A stretch of 64,000 nucleotides of DNA from Lacinutrix jangbogonensis (GTDB lineage: Bacteria; Bacteroidota; Bacteroidia; Flavobacteriales; Flavobacteriaceae). The number at the start of each line of letters is the position of its first letter. The first letter of the stretch is position 1. The DNA lies in contig NZ_JSWF01000044.1 of the NCBI RefSeq assembly GCF_000797445.1, positions 1-64,000 on the forward strand, given 5' to 3'. Positions 4,060 through 64,000 of this stretch are shown here, in pieces. Made by a program: the position numbers and the translations under genes. The notes beneath the pieces are model-generated. The model searched no databases, was not told the origin of the DNA, and saw only the letters and a program-made list of their open reading frames with translations.

Positions 4060-5055
4060 ATGGCATCCTACTCTATAAGTGAAATCAACAACCTTTTAAA
4101 AGGTGAATTAATAGGTAATACCACTCAAAAAATTGAAGGTCCCGAGGAATTACAAAAAGCAAGCTGTAATCAAATCACATTTATTGGAAGTAATAAATAT
4201 GCCAAATATTGGCAAGATTCAAAAGCCTGTGCTGCCCTTGTTAGTAATAATTTAAAAATTGAACCTGGCGATAATCGTGCTTTTATTAAAGTAAACAATG
4301 TGGATTTAGCTATGGCAAAAATACTGGAGCTTTTTAATCTTCCAGCACCTGTTTTTGATACCGATATACATCCAACTGCCGTGATACACGATACTGCAAA
4401 AATTGGTGATGGTTGCAAAATTGGCCCAAATTGTTATGTAGGTAAAGATGTTGAATTAGGAAACGGAGTCGTTTTATATCCAAATGTTTGTGTCTTTGAT
4501 GAAACCACTATAGGAGATAATACTATTGTTTGGTCTGGAACTATTATACGTGAACGCTGTATTATTGGTAGTCATTGTATTTTTCACACCAATGTAAGTA
4601 TTGGCGCAGATGGATTTGGATATAGACCTAGTGAAGATGGTAGAGGACTGGTAAAAATACCACAGATAGGAAATGTAATTATTGGGCATTATGTTGAAAT
4701 TGGTGCCAATTCATGTGTTGATAGAGCGAAATTTAGCTCCACTATTATTGGTGATGGCTGTAAAATTGACAACTTAGTACAAGTAGCCCATAACAGTGTT
4801 ATGGGACGTTCTTGTATTATGGCAGGACATAGTGGTCTTGCGGGTTCTGTTACTTTGGGTGATGGTGTAATTATTGGCGGAAGTGCCTCTATAAAAGACC
4901 ATACTACAATACATTCTGGCGCTACAGTTGGTGCTGGATCGGGAGTGATGAATGATGTGGAAGCCGGTAAAACTGTTTTAGGATATCCTGCACAAGATGC
5001 GAGAGAGATGCTAAAACAATGGGTGGCTGTAAGACGCTTTATGAAAAATCAATAA
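4060..5055 (+). CDS. lpxD: UDP-3-O-acylglucosamine N-acyltransferase LpxD
   Basis: LpxD adds the N-linked hydroxyacyl chain to UDP-3-O-acylglucosamine from acyl-ACP, the third step of lipid A synthesis in the cytoplasm. Residues 1-100 form the uridine-binding N-terminal domain. From about residue 100 the protein is a left-handed beta-helix of hexapeptide repeats (IGDGCKIGPNCYVG, VIIGHYVEIGANSC). The conserved segment VQVAHNSVMG holds the expected catalytic His, and GADGFGYRP is also typical. The length of 331 residues is normal for Bacteroidota. Flavobacteria often carry two LpxD-like proteins, so this may be the paralogue rather than the copy beside lpxC. It stands alone, before the sigma factor gene. 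Confidence 0.88.
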   Translation: MASYSISEINNLLKGELIGNTTQKIEGPEELQKASCNQITFIGSNKYAKYWQDSKACAALVSNNLKIEPGDNRAFIKVNNVDLAMAKILELFNLPAPVFDTDIHPTAVIHDTAKIGDGCKIGPNCYVGKDVELGNGVVLYPNVCVFDETTIGDNTIVWSGTIIRERCIIGSHCIFHTNVSIGADGFGYRPSEDGRGLVKIPQIGNVIIGHYVEIGANSCVDRAKFSSTIIGDGCKIDNLVQVAHNSVMGRSCIMAGHSGLAGSVTLGDGVIIGGSASIKDHTTIHSGATVGAGSGVMNDVEAGKTVLGYPAQDAREMLKQWVAVRRFMKNQ

Positions 5056-5121: not shown

Positions 5122-5141
5122 AGTAAACCACTTGAGTAATC

Positions 5142-5236
5142 GCGTTAAGGATAGCAGTGGCATCCTTTTTTATTAAAAAAGATATAACGTATAGCCTGAC
5201 GTTTTTAAACCATTTATTGGTTTAAAAAGGGAACGC
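5142..5236 (+). ncRNA. Structured RNA-like element, copy A
   Basis: The element opens with GCGTTAAGGATAGCAGTGG and closes with GAACGC. GCGTT at 5142-5146 can pair with AACGC at 5232-5236. Inside are a hairpin in the AT-rich stretch 5162-5183 and a perfect 10-bp hairpin, TTTTTAAACC with GGTTTAAAAA, directly after AGCCTGAC. A second copy in this window (62812-62885) keeps the closing stem, the GATAG and AGCCTGAC blocks and a hairpin after each, while the hairpin sequences differ. This points to a three-way-junction RNA under structural constraint. I cannot name the family; whether it is a small RNA, a leader or a mobile structured repeat is open. Confidence 0.55.
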
Positions 5237-5344
5237 TAAAAAAAAACAAACCTTTTTGTAACAAAATGTACCCTTTATGCGTATAACTAGTGATAGTAAT
5301 TTATTCACTCCTATTTACGTAGGAATTAATCACAACTTACATAC

Positions 5345-6208
5345 ATGAGACAACTTAAAATTACCAAGCAGGTTACAAATCGTGAGACCGCATCGTTAGA
5401 TAAATATCTACAAGAAATTGGAAAAGTTGACTTAATTACCGCAGACGAAGAAGTAGAATTAGCACAACGTATTAAGGCTGGCGACCAATTGGCTCTCGAG
5501 AAATTGACTAAGGCAAACTTACGTTTCGTAGTTTCGGTAGCTAAGCAATACCAAAATCAAGGTTTAACGTTACCAGATTTAATTAACGAAGGTAATTTAG
5601 GGTTAATAAAAGCTGCTCAACGTTTTGATGAAACGCGTGGTTTTAAATTTATCTCTTATGCTGTATGGTGGATTAGACAATCTATTTTACAAGCATTAGC
5701 AGAACAGTCTCGTATTGTACGTTTACCATTAAACAAGATTGGTTCTATTAACAAAATAAACAAAACTTTTGCCTTTTTAGAGCAAGCACATGAGCGTCCG
5801 CCAAGTGCTGAGGAGATTGCAAAAGAGTTAGATATGACTATTAACGACGTCAAGGAATCTATGAAGAATTCTGGACGTCACGTAAGTATGGATGCACCTT
5901 TAGTTGAAGGTGAAGATTCTAACTTATACGATGTACTAAACTCTGGCGAGTCGCCAAATCCAGATCGTAACTTATTACATGAGTCTTTACGTACTGAAAT
6001 TGAGCGTGCTCTTGAAACTTTAACACCTCGTGAGGCAGATGTTATTAGATTATACTTTGGTTTAGGAAACCAACACCCAATGACTTTAGAAGAAATTGGT
6101 GAAACTTTCGATTTAACACGTGAGCGTGTAAGACAAATTAAAGAAAAAGCGATTCGTAGATTAAAACATACGTCTAGAAGTAAAATATTAAAAACTTACT
6201 TAGGATAA
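5345..6208 (+). CDS. rpoD: Primary RNA polymerase sigma factor (RpoD/SigA)
   Basis: This is the housekeeping sigma-70 factor of the Bacteroidota type: 287 residues, lacking region 1.1 and the long non-conserved insert of proteobacterial RpoD. Region 1.2 is seen as [20 protein letters not shown] and region 2 as [18 protein letters not shown] followed by the -10-reading [15 protein letters not shown]. Region 3 follows, then region 4 ([20 protein letters not shown]), an HTH. In this phylum the factor reads TTTG and TAnnTTTG promoters, several of which are seen in this window. A leader of more than 200 nt with a structured element precedes it, and two hairpins follow it. Confidence 0.97.
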
Positions 6209-62224: not shown

Positions 62225-62806
62225 ATGGAAAAATTTACAACATTAACATCAAGAGCAATTCCTTTAGATATTGCGAATGTAGATACAGACCAAATTATTC
62301 CTGCGCGTTTTTTAAAAGCAACTGATAAAAAAGGCTTTGGTAACAACGTGTTTAGAGATTGGCGTTATAACAAAGAAGGTTCTGAAAACACAGCCTTTGC
62401 TTTAAACAATAAAAATTATTATGGAAGCATATTAGTAGCTGGAGATAATTTTGGCTGTGGCTCTAGTCGTGAGCATGCTGCTTGGGCTTTAGTTGACTAT
62501 GGTTTTAGAGTAATCGTTTCTAGTTTTTTTGCAGATATTTTTAAAGGCAATGCATTAAATAATGGTTTATTGCCTGTTCAGGTAACCGCACCTTTTCTAA
62601 ATGAACTACTAAATACCATAAAAAATAATCCGGATACAAAAATTATCGTTAATTTAGAATTACAAACGATTTCTGCAGGTGATAAATCTGAATCTTTTGA
62701 CATTGATTCATACAAAAAAACATGTATGATTAATGGTTACGACGATATAGATTACTTGCTAAGTAAAAAAACAGAAATTGAAGCCTTTGAAAACGCACTT
62801 GGCTAG
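62225..62806 (+). CDS. leuD: Isopropylmalate dehydratase small subunit LeuD
   Basis: LeuD is the swivelling domain partner of Leu[21 protein letters not shown] at the start and [20 protein letters not shown] in the middle are the family signature. [22 protein letters not shown] closes the active-site face. The length is 193 residues. The following gap of 164 bp to leuB holds the second copy of the structured element and a REP-like repeat. Confidence 0.97.
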
Positions 62807-62811
62807 TTAGC

Positions 62812-62885
62812 GCGTTAATGATAGAACGGTATGTTTGAGCTTCTCGAAGAGAGCGAGTAGAGAAAGCCTGACCTTTAGGTAACGC
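62812..62885 (+). ncRNA. Structured RNA-like element, copy B
   Basis: It starts GCGTTAATGATAGAACGG and ends GGTAACGC, so GCGTTA can pair with TAACGC. After the GATAG block comes a hairpin region (GAGCTTCTCGAAGAGAGC) and then AGCCTGAC followed by a small ACCT/AGGT hairpin. The conserved blocks and closing stem match copy A (5142-5236), while the hairpins differ in sequence and length. It lies inside the leu unit, between leuD and leuB, so it does not simply end transcription and might affect leuB expression. Confidence 0.55.
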
Positions 62886-62925
62886 CCAAAAAATAAAATA
62901 AATATAAAGAGATTTCCATAATTTA

Positions 62926-62945
62926 CACTGAGCGCAGTCGAAGTG
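62926..62945 (-). repeat. REP-like palindrome before leuB
   Basis: CACTGAGCGCAGTCGAAGTG has complementary ends (CACT/AGTG). Its reverse complement begins CACTTCGAC, the same as the second module in the mraY/murD gap, and resembles a dispersed palindrome familiar in Bacteroidota genomes. It is 25 bp upstream of the leuB start. Confidence 0.55.
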
Positions 62946-62970: not shown

Positions 62971-64000
62971 ATGAAATTAAATATTGCAGTTTTACCAGGT
63001 GATGGTATTGGTCCAGAGGTAACCAAACAAGCTATTAAGGTTTTAAAAGCGATTGCTTTAGAATTTGACCATACGTTTTTATTCAAGGAAGCTTTGGTTG
63101 GTGCAATTGCTATAGACACACATAATAACCCGTTACCAGACCAGACTTTAAAGTTGTGCAAAACGAGTGATGCCATCTTATTTGGTGCCATTGGCCACCC
63201 AAAATACGATAACGATCCTAGTGCAAAAGTAAGACCAGAACAGGGCTTACTAAAACTTAGAAAAGAACTAGGCTTATACGCAAATGTTAGACCTGTAAAG
63301 GCTTACGATACATTATTAGATAAGTCTCCTTTAAAAAGAGAAATTATTGAAGGCACAGATATTAGCATTTACAGAGAGCTTACTGGCGGTATTTATTTTG
63401 GCGAAAAGAAGCTTAGTGACGACGGAAATGTGGCTTCAGATTTATGCGAGTATTCTCGTGGAGAAATCGAACGCATTGCACATTTAGCATTTAAAGCTGC
63501 GCAAAGCAGAAGCAAGAAAGTGACATTAGTGGACAAAGCAAATGTTTTAGAAACTTCTCGCTTATGGCGAAAAGTAGTCACAGAATTAGGAACACAATAT
63601 CCAGATGTTACGCTTGACTTTTTATTTGTAGATAATGCAGCCATGCAAATGATCTTAAATCCAAAACAGTTTGATGTTATTTTAACCGAAAACTTATTTG
63701 GCGATATTATTAGCGACGAAGCTAGTGTTATTGGTGGATCTATTGGCTTATTAGCTTCGGCTTCGGTTGGAGACAAGTATGCAATGTTCGAGCCCATTCA
63801 TGGTTCTTATCCACAAGCTACAGGAAAAGGGATTGCCAATCCTGTTGCATCTATTTTAAGTGCTGCTATGCTATTGGAGCATTTTGAATTATTTGACGAA
63901 GCTGACTTAATTAAAGAAGCTGTAGACAAATCTTTAAAGCTTAATGTTATAACACCAGATTTGAATACAATTTACGATAACGTTTCTACTTCTAAAGTCG
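62971..64000 (+). CDS. leuB: 3-isopropylmalate dehydrogenase LeuB, 3' end outside window
   Basis: LeuB oxidises and decarboxylates 3-isopropylmalate with NAD. The frame opens with MKLNIAVLPGDGIGPEV and stays open for 343 codons to the window edge, only about 10-20 codons short of the usual end. The substrate Arg residues are in LRKELGLYANVRPVK and IYRELTGGIYFG, and the metal site in ENLFGDIISDEASVIGGSIG. FEPIHGSYPQATGKGIANPV is the NAD-binding signature. It is the fourth gene of the leucine unit. Confidence 0.95.
   Translation, partial: MKLNIAVLPGDGIGPEVTKQAIKVLKAIALEFDHTFLFKEALVGAIAIDTHNNPLPDQTLKLCKTSDAILFGAIGHPKYDNDPSAKVRPEQGLLKLRKELGLYANVRPVKAYDTLLDKSPLKREIIEGTDISIYRELTGGIYFGEKKLSDDGNVASDLCEYSRGEIERIAHLAFKAAQSRSKKVTLVDKANVLETSRLWRKVVTELGTQYPDVTLDFLFVDNAAMQMILNPKQFDVILTENLFGDIISDEASVIGGSIGLLASASVGDKYAMFEPIHGSYPQATGKGIANPVASILSAAMLLEHFELFDEADLIKEAVDKSLKLNVITPDLNTIYDNVSTSKV

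Follow-up and report, generated by a model that had tools for sequence, protein, structure and literature searches.

The window analysed here is a stretch of 64,000 nucleotides from the marine flavobacterium Lacinutrix jangbogonensis, and carries a structured element at two intergenic sites of its + strand. The first, copy A (5142-5237), lies between lpxD (4060-5055, + strand; TIGR01853, 321 bits for a cut-off of 242.5) and a gene for an RpoD-type sigma-70 factor (5345-6208, + strand), for which the RpoD models are the best NCBIfam matches but remain below their whole-protein cut-offs, the sigma-70 superfamily model being above its own. The second, copy B (62812-62886), starts 5 nt past the stop codon of leuD (62225-62806, + strand; TIGR00171, 215.9 bits for a cut-off of 116) and ends 84 nt before leuB (62971-63999, + strand, read to the window end; TIGR00169, 446 bits for a cut-off of 353), in sense orientation with these genes. 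Profile matches also identified leuC in the window.

The initial annotation had noticed four short sequence blocks common to these two sites. All four were found where it placed them, in the same order and on the same strand, and the stem GCGTT/AACGC closes copy A and copy B alike. The observation of a paired structured element in two copies is therefore confirmed, while the interpretation given to it is, as a whole, partly supported. In copy A, the 5′ strand of the closing stem P1, GCGTT (5142-5146), pairs with AACGC (5232-5236). The base of the P2 arm, AGG (5148-5150), pairs with CCT (5195-5197) and covaries across the family, the distal part of P2 (GATAGCAGTGGCATCC..GATATAACGTATAG) spans 5151-5194, and P3 (5200-5230) is a hairpin specific to the locus, as judged from orthologues compared by eye. 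In copy B, the distal P2 arm (GATAGAACGGTATGTTTGAGC..GAGCGAGTAGAGAAAGC) occupies 62820-62867 and the P3 hairpin (CCTTTAGG) 62872-62879. The hairpins by which the two copies had been said to differ, AAACC/GGTTT in A and ACCT/AGGT in B, are real and correspond to one arm, P3; the main difference lies in the P2 arm, which had not been described.

Reading many copies side by side, the element is a three-way junction around a conserved unpaired core, with a length of about 75 to 200 nt. P1 is GCGTTA/TAACGC, with a sixth pair that is often unformed across copies and is missing in copy A. P2 begins with a base of three pairs (RSG/CSY). Beyond an A.G mispair and two further pairs comes an internal loop, in which tandem G.A pairs could form in either arm type, and then the distal part. 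A GA joint, the P3 hairpin and the closure of P1 follow in this order on the 3′ side. P1, the covarying P2 base, the GA joint and the P3 hairpin, by which we define a superfamily, are all found in copies A and B, copy B having one mispair in the P2 base (T62819 opposite C62868). The distal P2 part comes in two types: type A, AAGCGGCATCC...GATATAGCG with an apical hairpin, and type B, AACGGTNTGTTTGAGC...GCGAGTAGT, whose apical hairpin is variable. A type-1 frame (TTTAGCCYTGAT...GCRGGAAATAGCT) occurs with arm A, and arm B was found in this frame in none of the 60 family genomes. P3 is 8 nt long in 83 of 223 copies, and reaches 78 nt in others.

Three Rfam matches were obtained in the window at curated cut-offs, two tRNAs and Flavo-1 (RF01705), the latter being copy A (5134-5205, + strand, 51.7 bits for a cut-off of 42; type 2, arm type A). 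The likeness to Flavo-1 considered in the initial annotation was thus established for copy A but not for copy B, which had no match to this model in the window up to E 10. A covariance model, R1, was built from 16 of 20 sequences of copy B's family, with copy B included and copy A left out. At E up to 1, it had two matches in the window: copy B, with 91.1 bits, and copy A, which it spanned end to end with 16.8 bits and an E-value of 0.066, marginal if taken alone. Copy B corresponds to part 383-461 of an 851-base query, a part that finds more places, at about 72-94% identity, in at least 12 of 13 genus genomes, and R1 has at least 4 matches in each of the 13. Next to copy B lies a REP-like palindrome, CACTGAGCGCAGTCGAAGTG (62926-62945), and the stretch around it also recurs in other genomes (for example query part 480-531 in genome G005). 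We conclude that copy B belongs to a second abundant repeat family, which has P1, the P2 base, the GA joint and P3 in common with Flavo-1 and a different distal P2 arm. Copy A and its paralogues score above the Flavo-1 cut-off and have the P2 arm in common with that family, but the Flavo-1 model (76 positions) stops inside copy A, lacks P1 and P3 of the junction, and misses copy B. The superfamily, a set of dispersed and modular elements in Flavobacteriaceae, is firmly wider than Flavo-1: type-A P2 arms mark its Flavo-1 members, and type-B arms those of copy B's family. Flavo-1 RNA was listed in 2010 (Weinberg et al., PMC2864571), and the accessible parts of PMC2864571, PMC9723704 and PMC9029176 give no function for it. 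In a literature search outside bioRxiv, covering few subscription papers, we found no description of copy B's family or of the full junction.

The L. jangbogonensis genome contains 30 Flavo-1 matches at E up to 1, a threshold at which 5 of 14 control genomes also match (none above the cut-off); 18 of the 30 are above the cut-off, one pair among these lying on stretches that are duplicated between contigs C12 and C35. At E up to 0.001, Flavo-1 was found in 25 of 40 genomes (this one included; 23 with matches above the cut-off) and in none of the 14 controls, which bears out the earlier belief that similar elements recur in Bacteroidota. R1 matched 26 of the 40 genomes, with 30 places in the L. 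jangbogonensis genome; these counts are not those of family B alone, as the model reaches type-A copies through the common frame. The tens of further copies expected of an RNA family, with compensatory changes in their alignments, were found. Within the genus, the number of Flavo-1 matches ranges from 0 to 44 per genome (E up to 0.001). The copy-poor genomes G010, G003 and G008 have 0, 6 and 6 Flavo-1 matches and 4, 11 and 7 R1 matches, respectively, and the other ten have 13 to 44 and 16 to 46. A scan of named genomes for the 3′ half of arm B (at least 120 stretches) yielded, among the matches listed, Algibacter, Winogradskyella, Lacinutrix, Olleya, Psychroserpens, Tamlana, Hyunsoonleella, Bizionia, Gelidibacter, Aquimarina and others, the nearest to the window being Lacinutrix algicola (86% over 3.2 kb).

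Covariation was measured in both arm types. For type A, alignment A2 comprised 19 of 20 copies preselected for a loop of 17-25 nt and a P3 of 8 nt, one per cluster; a copy without P1 (L201) was left out. In these 19 sequences, 98.6% of 418 cells were paired, and five pairs changed on both sides: G7-C65 (also A-U), G8-C64 (C-G, U-A and wobbles), U12-A60 (A-U, G-C), G16-C56 (A-U, G-U) and U5-A77 (G-C). For family B (16 sequences), 96.4% of 304 cells were paired and four pairs changed on both sides. With slid structures, 27-55% of cells pair. In both types, the percentage of paired cells, the number of cells changed on both sides and the covariation score were each reached by 0 of 500 shuffles, in which the relatedness of the sequences is uncorrected. 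The number of changed pairs was reached by 27 of 500 shuffles for type A and 99 of 500 for family B, and that of pair types by 9 and 15 of 500, respectively. The proposal of a covarying three-way junction, under selection for its structure, is upheld by these figures. Family size and covariation together make a chance origin very unlikely.

Changes between orthologues gave a more graded picture. In copy-A orthologues read by eye, P3 is AAGCC/GGCTT, AAGCC/GGTTT (a wobble) or AAACC/GGTTT in different genomes. Over 121 comparisons, which take in decayed copies and some register errors, compensated, wobble and broken changes numbered 17, 1 and 5 in P2a, 18, 7 and 17 in P2b, 12, 5 and 18 in P2c, and 6, 7 and 9 in P3. 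For P1, they were 4, 5 and 57, which counts against kept pairing of this stem. The junction was absent from the minimum-energy folds of single copies on the + strand. Shuffles fold less well than copy A on both strands (z of -3.1 on the + strand and -3.7 on the - strand), and copy B does not stand out from them on either (-1.2 and -0.3). The - strand of copy A, whose z is at least as low as that of the + strand, counts against an RNA made from the + strand.

The surroundings of the copies were called with a simple open-frame finder, which left 8 of 149 flank clusters without context; the copies were located by fuzzy expressions, which under-count decayed ones. Among the 141 clusters with context, 77 were '--', with both flanking genes opposed to the element, and 35 '++', with both in its orientation (p 9e-5); 19 were convergent and 10 divergent, and the gene on the 3′ side of the element was opposed to it in 96 of 141 (p 2e-5). 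In 48 of 76 '--' sites, no more than 15 nt separate the 3′ end of the element from the opposed stop codon; at '++' sites, the 5′ end comes this close to a sense stop codon in 5 of 35 (Fisher p 1.4e-6). At convergent sites, a stop codon is that close in 6 of 19 at the 3′ end and 2 of 19 at the 5′ end. A second set of named records (at least 120 loci, 11 of 120 unparsed) gave 82 clusters among the matches listed: 40 '--', 18 '++' (p 0.005), 10 convergent, 8 divergent and 6 at an edge, with 25 of the 40 '--' clusters within 15 nt of a stop codon. This set is partly independent, since it includes Lacinutrix records, some seemingly identical to genomes of the main set. The neighbours named by Pfam at a few sites (2 of 10 proteins had no match) were triosephosphate isomerase, PrmA, a thiolase, an aldehyde dehydrogenase, B12-dependent methionine synthase, a PLP enzyme and a pseudouridine synthase; together with the window genes, they have no common function that we could see.

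The ends of 122 copies were then compared for signals. Base composition gave TT|GCGTTA at the left and GCC|CAAATAA at the right; no T-run follows the element, and the A-rich CAAATAA does. The promoter motif TANNTTTG is not enriched upstream, with 8 occurrences within 50 nt for 3 to 9 in the other five 50-nt bins, so that the idea of an RNA with its own promoter found no support. The motif is enriched just 3′ of the element on the same strand, with 13 and 10 occurrences in the first two 50-nt bins and 2 to 6 beyond; in some sense copies, the next promoter therefore lies behind the element. These counts bear on the view that the copies are independent small RNA genes, in keeping with the Rfam type of Flavo-1 ('Gene; sRNA') and with the strand bias described below, which holds in each of four contexts (few events in two). 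The lack of motif enrichment in the 50 nt upstream speaks against this view, and in Flavobacterium psychrophilum the Flavo-1 matches are sense or antisense to transcribed regions, many lying outside them, as far as the accessible part of PMC9723704 goes. We regard small RNA genes as quite improbable.

To which strand the fold belongs can be read from mismatches: a G.T pair on one strand is an A.C on the other, so their ratio shows which strand is kept folded. Distinct events were counted in 242 copies (161 type A, 81 type B; 149 flank clusters), P1 and P2-base pairs being taken only if at least 4 of 5 P1 pairs were standard, and the sixth P1 pair excluded. Over P1, the P2 base, P3 and the arm-A loops, 41 G.T and 4 A.C were found on the + strand (p 9e-9), that is 20:0 in frame pairs and 21:4 in locus-specific arms. 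By context, the ratio was 11:0 in '++', 19:4 in '--', 6:0 in convergent, 2:0 in divergent and 3:0 in edge copies. Four pairs of the B stem stand outside this count, with 30:0 (the consensus being G.T), 1:9, 2:1 and 1:1. The named records gave 8:4 among the matches listed, with several positions fixed by the search pattern. Because G.T outnumbers A.C 41:4, the + strand seems to be the folded one. Single-stranded DNA would likewise favour G.T over A.C. In locus-specific arms, the ratio was 8:4 for '--' copies and 13:0 for all others (Fisher p 0.039), which hints at some role of the other strand in the former.

Two explanations are affected by this bias. The first is that compensated arms are a mutational by-product, hairpin-templated repair perfecting quasi-palindromes without selection. 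P3 and the apical arms are indeed often near-perfect hairpins of locus-specific sequence, but such repair offers no evident reason for preferring G.T over A.C on one strand, least of all 20:0 in the frame pairs, and we consider it very improbable. The second is that of a REP-like hairpin on mRNA, which just after a stop codon would stall ribosomes or shield the 3′ end of the upstream gene's message. The 48 of 76 '--' clusters close to a stop codon and the good folding of the - strand of copy A speak for it, and there is a precedent in E. coli, where REPs within 15 nt of a stop codon reportedly lower translation (PMC12306157, accessible part). However, the mRNA of '--' sites carries the - strand, whereas the ratio of 19:4 favours the + strand, and only 5 of 35 sense copies lie that close to a stop codon. 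This makes the hairpin explanation improbable, if less so than small RNA genes.

Orthologous sites were compared between genomes. Among the loci compared, 47 of 60 anchor copies of genome G001 have two-sided orthologues, and some of these sites are common to other genera. Orientation is kept in 133 of 141 typed orthologues. In the other 8 it is opposite, as if the element had been inverted in place or inserted again; the cases are sites L245 and L252 in Algibacter, Flaviramulus, Hyunsoonleella and Jejuia records, and L190 at site L287. In 15 of the 149 orthologues of typed anchors, no element was recognisable by the search expressions. At 18 of the 47 sites, genomes differ in the type of their distal P2 arm, A in some and B in others; 14 of the 18 stand without the named loci, these having been picked for arm B. 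The difference is internal to the element. At one site, the P3 (CCCTTTTTAGGG) is identical and the flanks are alike in G001 and G005, although the former has arm A and the latter arm B (L270, L223). At a second, arms A and B are both found within a rare P1 variant, GCGTGA/GCACGC (L243, L006). At a third, a 29-nt P3 is recognisably common to the arm-A copy of G001 (L252) and to the element of Winogradskyella records found by the arm-B pattern (L501, L433).

A serious rival to any local function is that the copies are relics of a non-autonomous mobile element, in which the + strand fold was the substrate for spreading, as RNA or single-stranded DNA, and the present likeness between copies comes from conversion. 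It accounts for a high and uneven copy number, dispersal in both orientations, distal arms that differ between orthologues, and the preference of one end for stop codons. Against it, copy number does not track Y1 transposases (PF01797, E up to 1e-5), which were found in 11 of the 40 genomes: G009, G011 and G012 have 24, 21 and 38 Flavo-1 matches and zero Y1 match. Mobilisation by Y1/RAYT proteins is accordingly unsupported. Nor was there any sign of lagging-strand targeting, the two halves of the G001 chromosome having 19 + / 16 - and 13 / 10 copies, with 2 unassigned. Some orthologous sites are common to other genera, and the locus-specific P3, which could not be refreshed from other copies, often stays paired (6 compensated, 7 wobble and 9 broken changes). 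Viral contigs gave no match with one strict pattern. Of the mobile structured repeat proposed in the initial annotation, dispersal thus stands, but 47 of 60 sites with orthologues elsewhere and the lack of Y1 tracking do not fit; we hold mobile relics to be possible but rather unlikely. The single Y1 match (IS200/RAYT-type) of the L. jangbogonensis genome is L085 (C25:13873-14232).

The two copies of the window illustrate how variable a site can be. For copy A, sites were read by eye in the 13 genus genomes: 5 have a recognisable element, 2 another copy further upstream, and 6 no element in the stretch read. A role as rpoD leader, which had been suggested, is not supported by this. By eye, the plausible promoter seen in front of copy A falls on the 3′ end of an upstream reading frame in G001, G002 and G005. 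In all 13 genus genomes, whether the element is present or not, a block resembling TTGTAACAAAATGTA with up to 3 changes is found 79-90 nt ahead of rpoD; copy A is therefore probably upstream of the rpoD promoter, hence not in the rpoD leader. In the leuD-leuB spacer, again by eye, an element directly follows leuD in 10 of the 13 genomes, 9 with an arm-B-like and one, G002, with an arm-A-like element; 2 of the remaining genomes have remnants and 1 has no element. In three relatives (L156, L161, L162), this spacer has some 50 additional nt (GATTAC...TTCGCAGTTGA or similar) to the left of the P2 arm, and pieces resembling it seem present in L021, L027 and L127 (by eye).

The family facts, that is the frame, its covariation, the strand bias, the common positions and the arm difference, are firm; the mechanism is inferred from them. 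A cis-acting boundary RNA made from the + strand fits best, because of the strand bias, the opposed gene on the 3′ side, and the absence of a promoter motif in front, a T-run behind and Y1 tracking. Taken whole, this preferred explanation, a dispersed modular superfamily acting in cis, through a folded transcript of the + strand, at the boundaries of transcripts, with arms that are exchanged, is tentative, and we give it somewhat less than an even chance. The frame would be the functional core, a putative protein-binding or RNA-processing site, and the arms interchangeable stabilisers. In most copies, the + strand heads for the 3′ end of an opposed gene but does not reach it: the element may end, process or block + strand transcription before it enters the gene in antisense. 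As the mRNA of '--' copies carries the other strand, the + strand transcript is predicted to be antisense there. In operons such as leuD-leuB, the element could mark a point of intercistronic processing or attenuation. Arms would change by recombination between dispersed copies, our guess being conversion across 12-15 nt of common sequence. The placement of Flavo-1 in F. psychrophilum, in the accessible part of PMC9723704, is compatible with a boundary RNA but no proof of it. The range of 0 to 44 Flavo-1 matches across the genus, which makes the element look dispensable, counts against it. So do the missing T-run and upstream promoter motif, the lower strand bias of the locus-specific arms in '--' copies, the 8:4 of the named records, the B-stem pair with 1:9, the similar G.T preference to be expected of single-stranded DNA, and the shuffles that reach the number of changed pairs.

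A bolder version would make the element a new class of strand-specific genome-boundary RNA: a modular junction at fixed sites, insulating opposed gene 3′ ends from antisense transcription, with a distal arm repeatedly swapped in situ between two unrelated, separately conserved modules by a short-homology or RNA-templated process, while the locus-specific third arm is kept. We find this doubtful. Seeing Flavo-1 as one arm variant of a larger junction element leads to precise predictions as to strand, position and boundary, and flavobacterial RNA-seq could address these; in-place arm exchange, if true, would be an unexpected way for a structured repeat to evolve.

Known systems offer partial likenesses. 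REP and REPIN sequences with their RAYT are also short, extragenic, multi-copy and structured, with many near stop codons. The present elements are longer than these and have a three-way junction with an unpaired core. A REP/RAYT pair has a GTAG or CGTC tag at one end (title of PMC3733652), whereas base composition in the 122 copies gave no such tag; unlike REPs, the elements show strand-biased folding and a copy number that does not track Y1, several copy-rich genomes having no Y1 (RAYT) transposase. Intrinsic terminators resemble them as stable hairpins between genes, but the elements lack a T-run and convergent sites are a minority (19 of 141 clusters).

Two observations were made along the way. 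In the L. jangbogonensis genome, contigs C12/C35 and C24/C25 have duplicate or near-duplicate stretches (L013/L014, L023/L026, L019/L020), which point to assembly duplication or a strain mixture (contamination value 4.54). Of 161 apical loops of arm A, 117 are about 15-34 nt long and 29 form a second length class of 80-99 nt; the long ones are common to some orthologues and different in others. Several looked coding, and capture of gene fragments was considered, but rejected in view of the 80-99 nt length class and the frequent REP-like ends. By eye, the long loops are mostly AT-rich, and many terminate in a small REP-like hairpin (for example L011, L012, L016, L022, L023 and L046).
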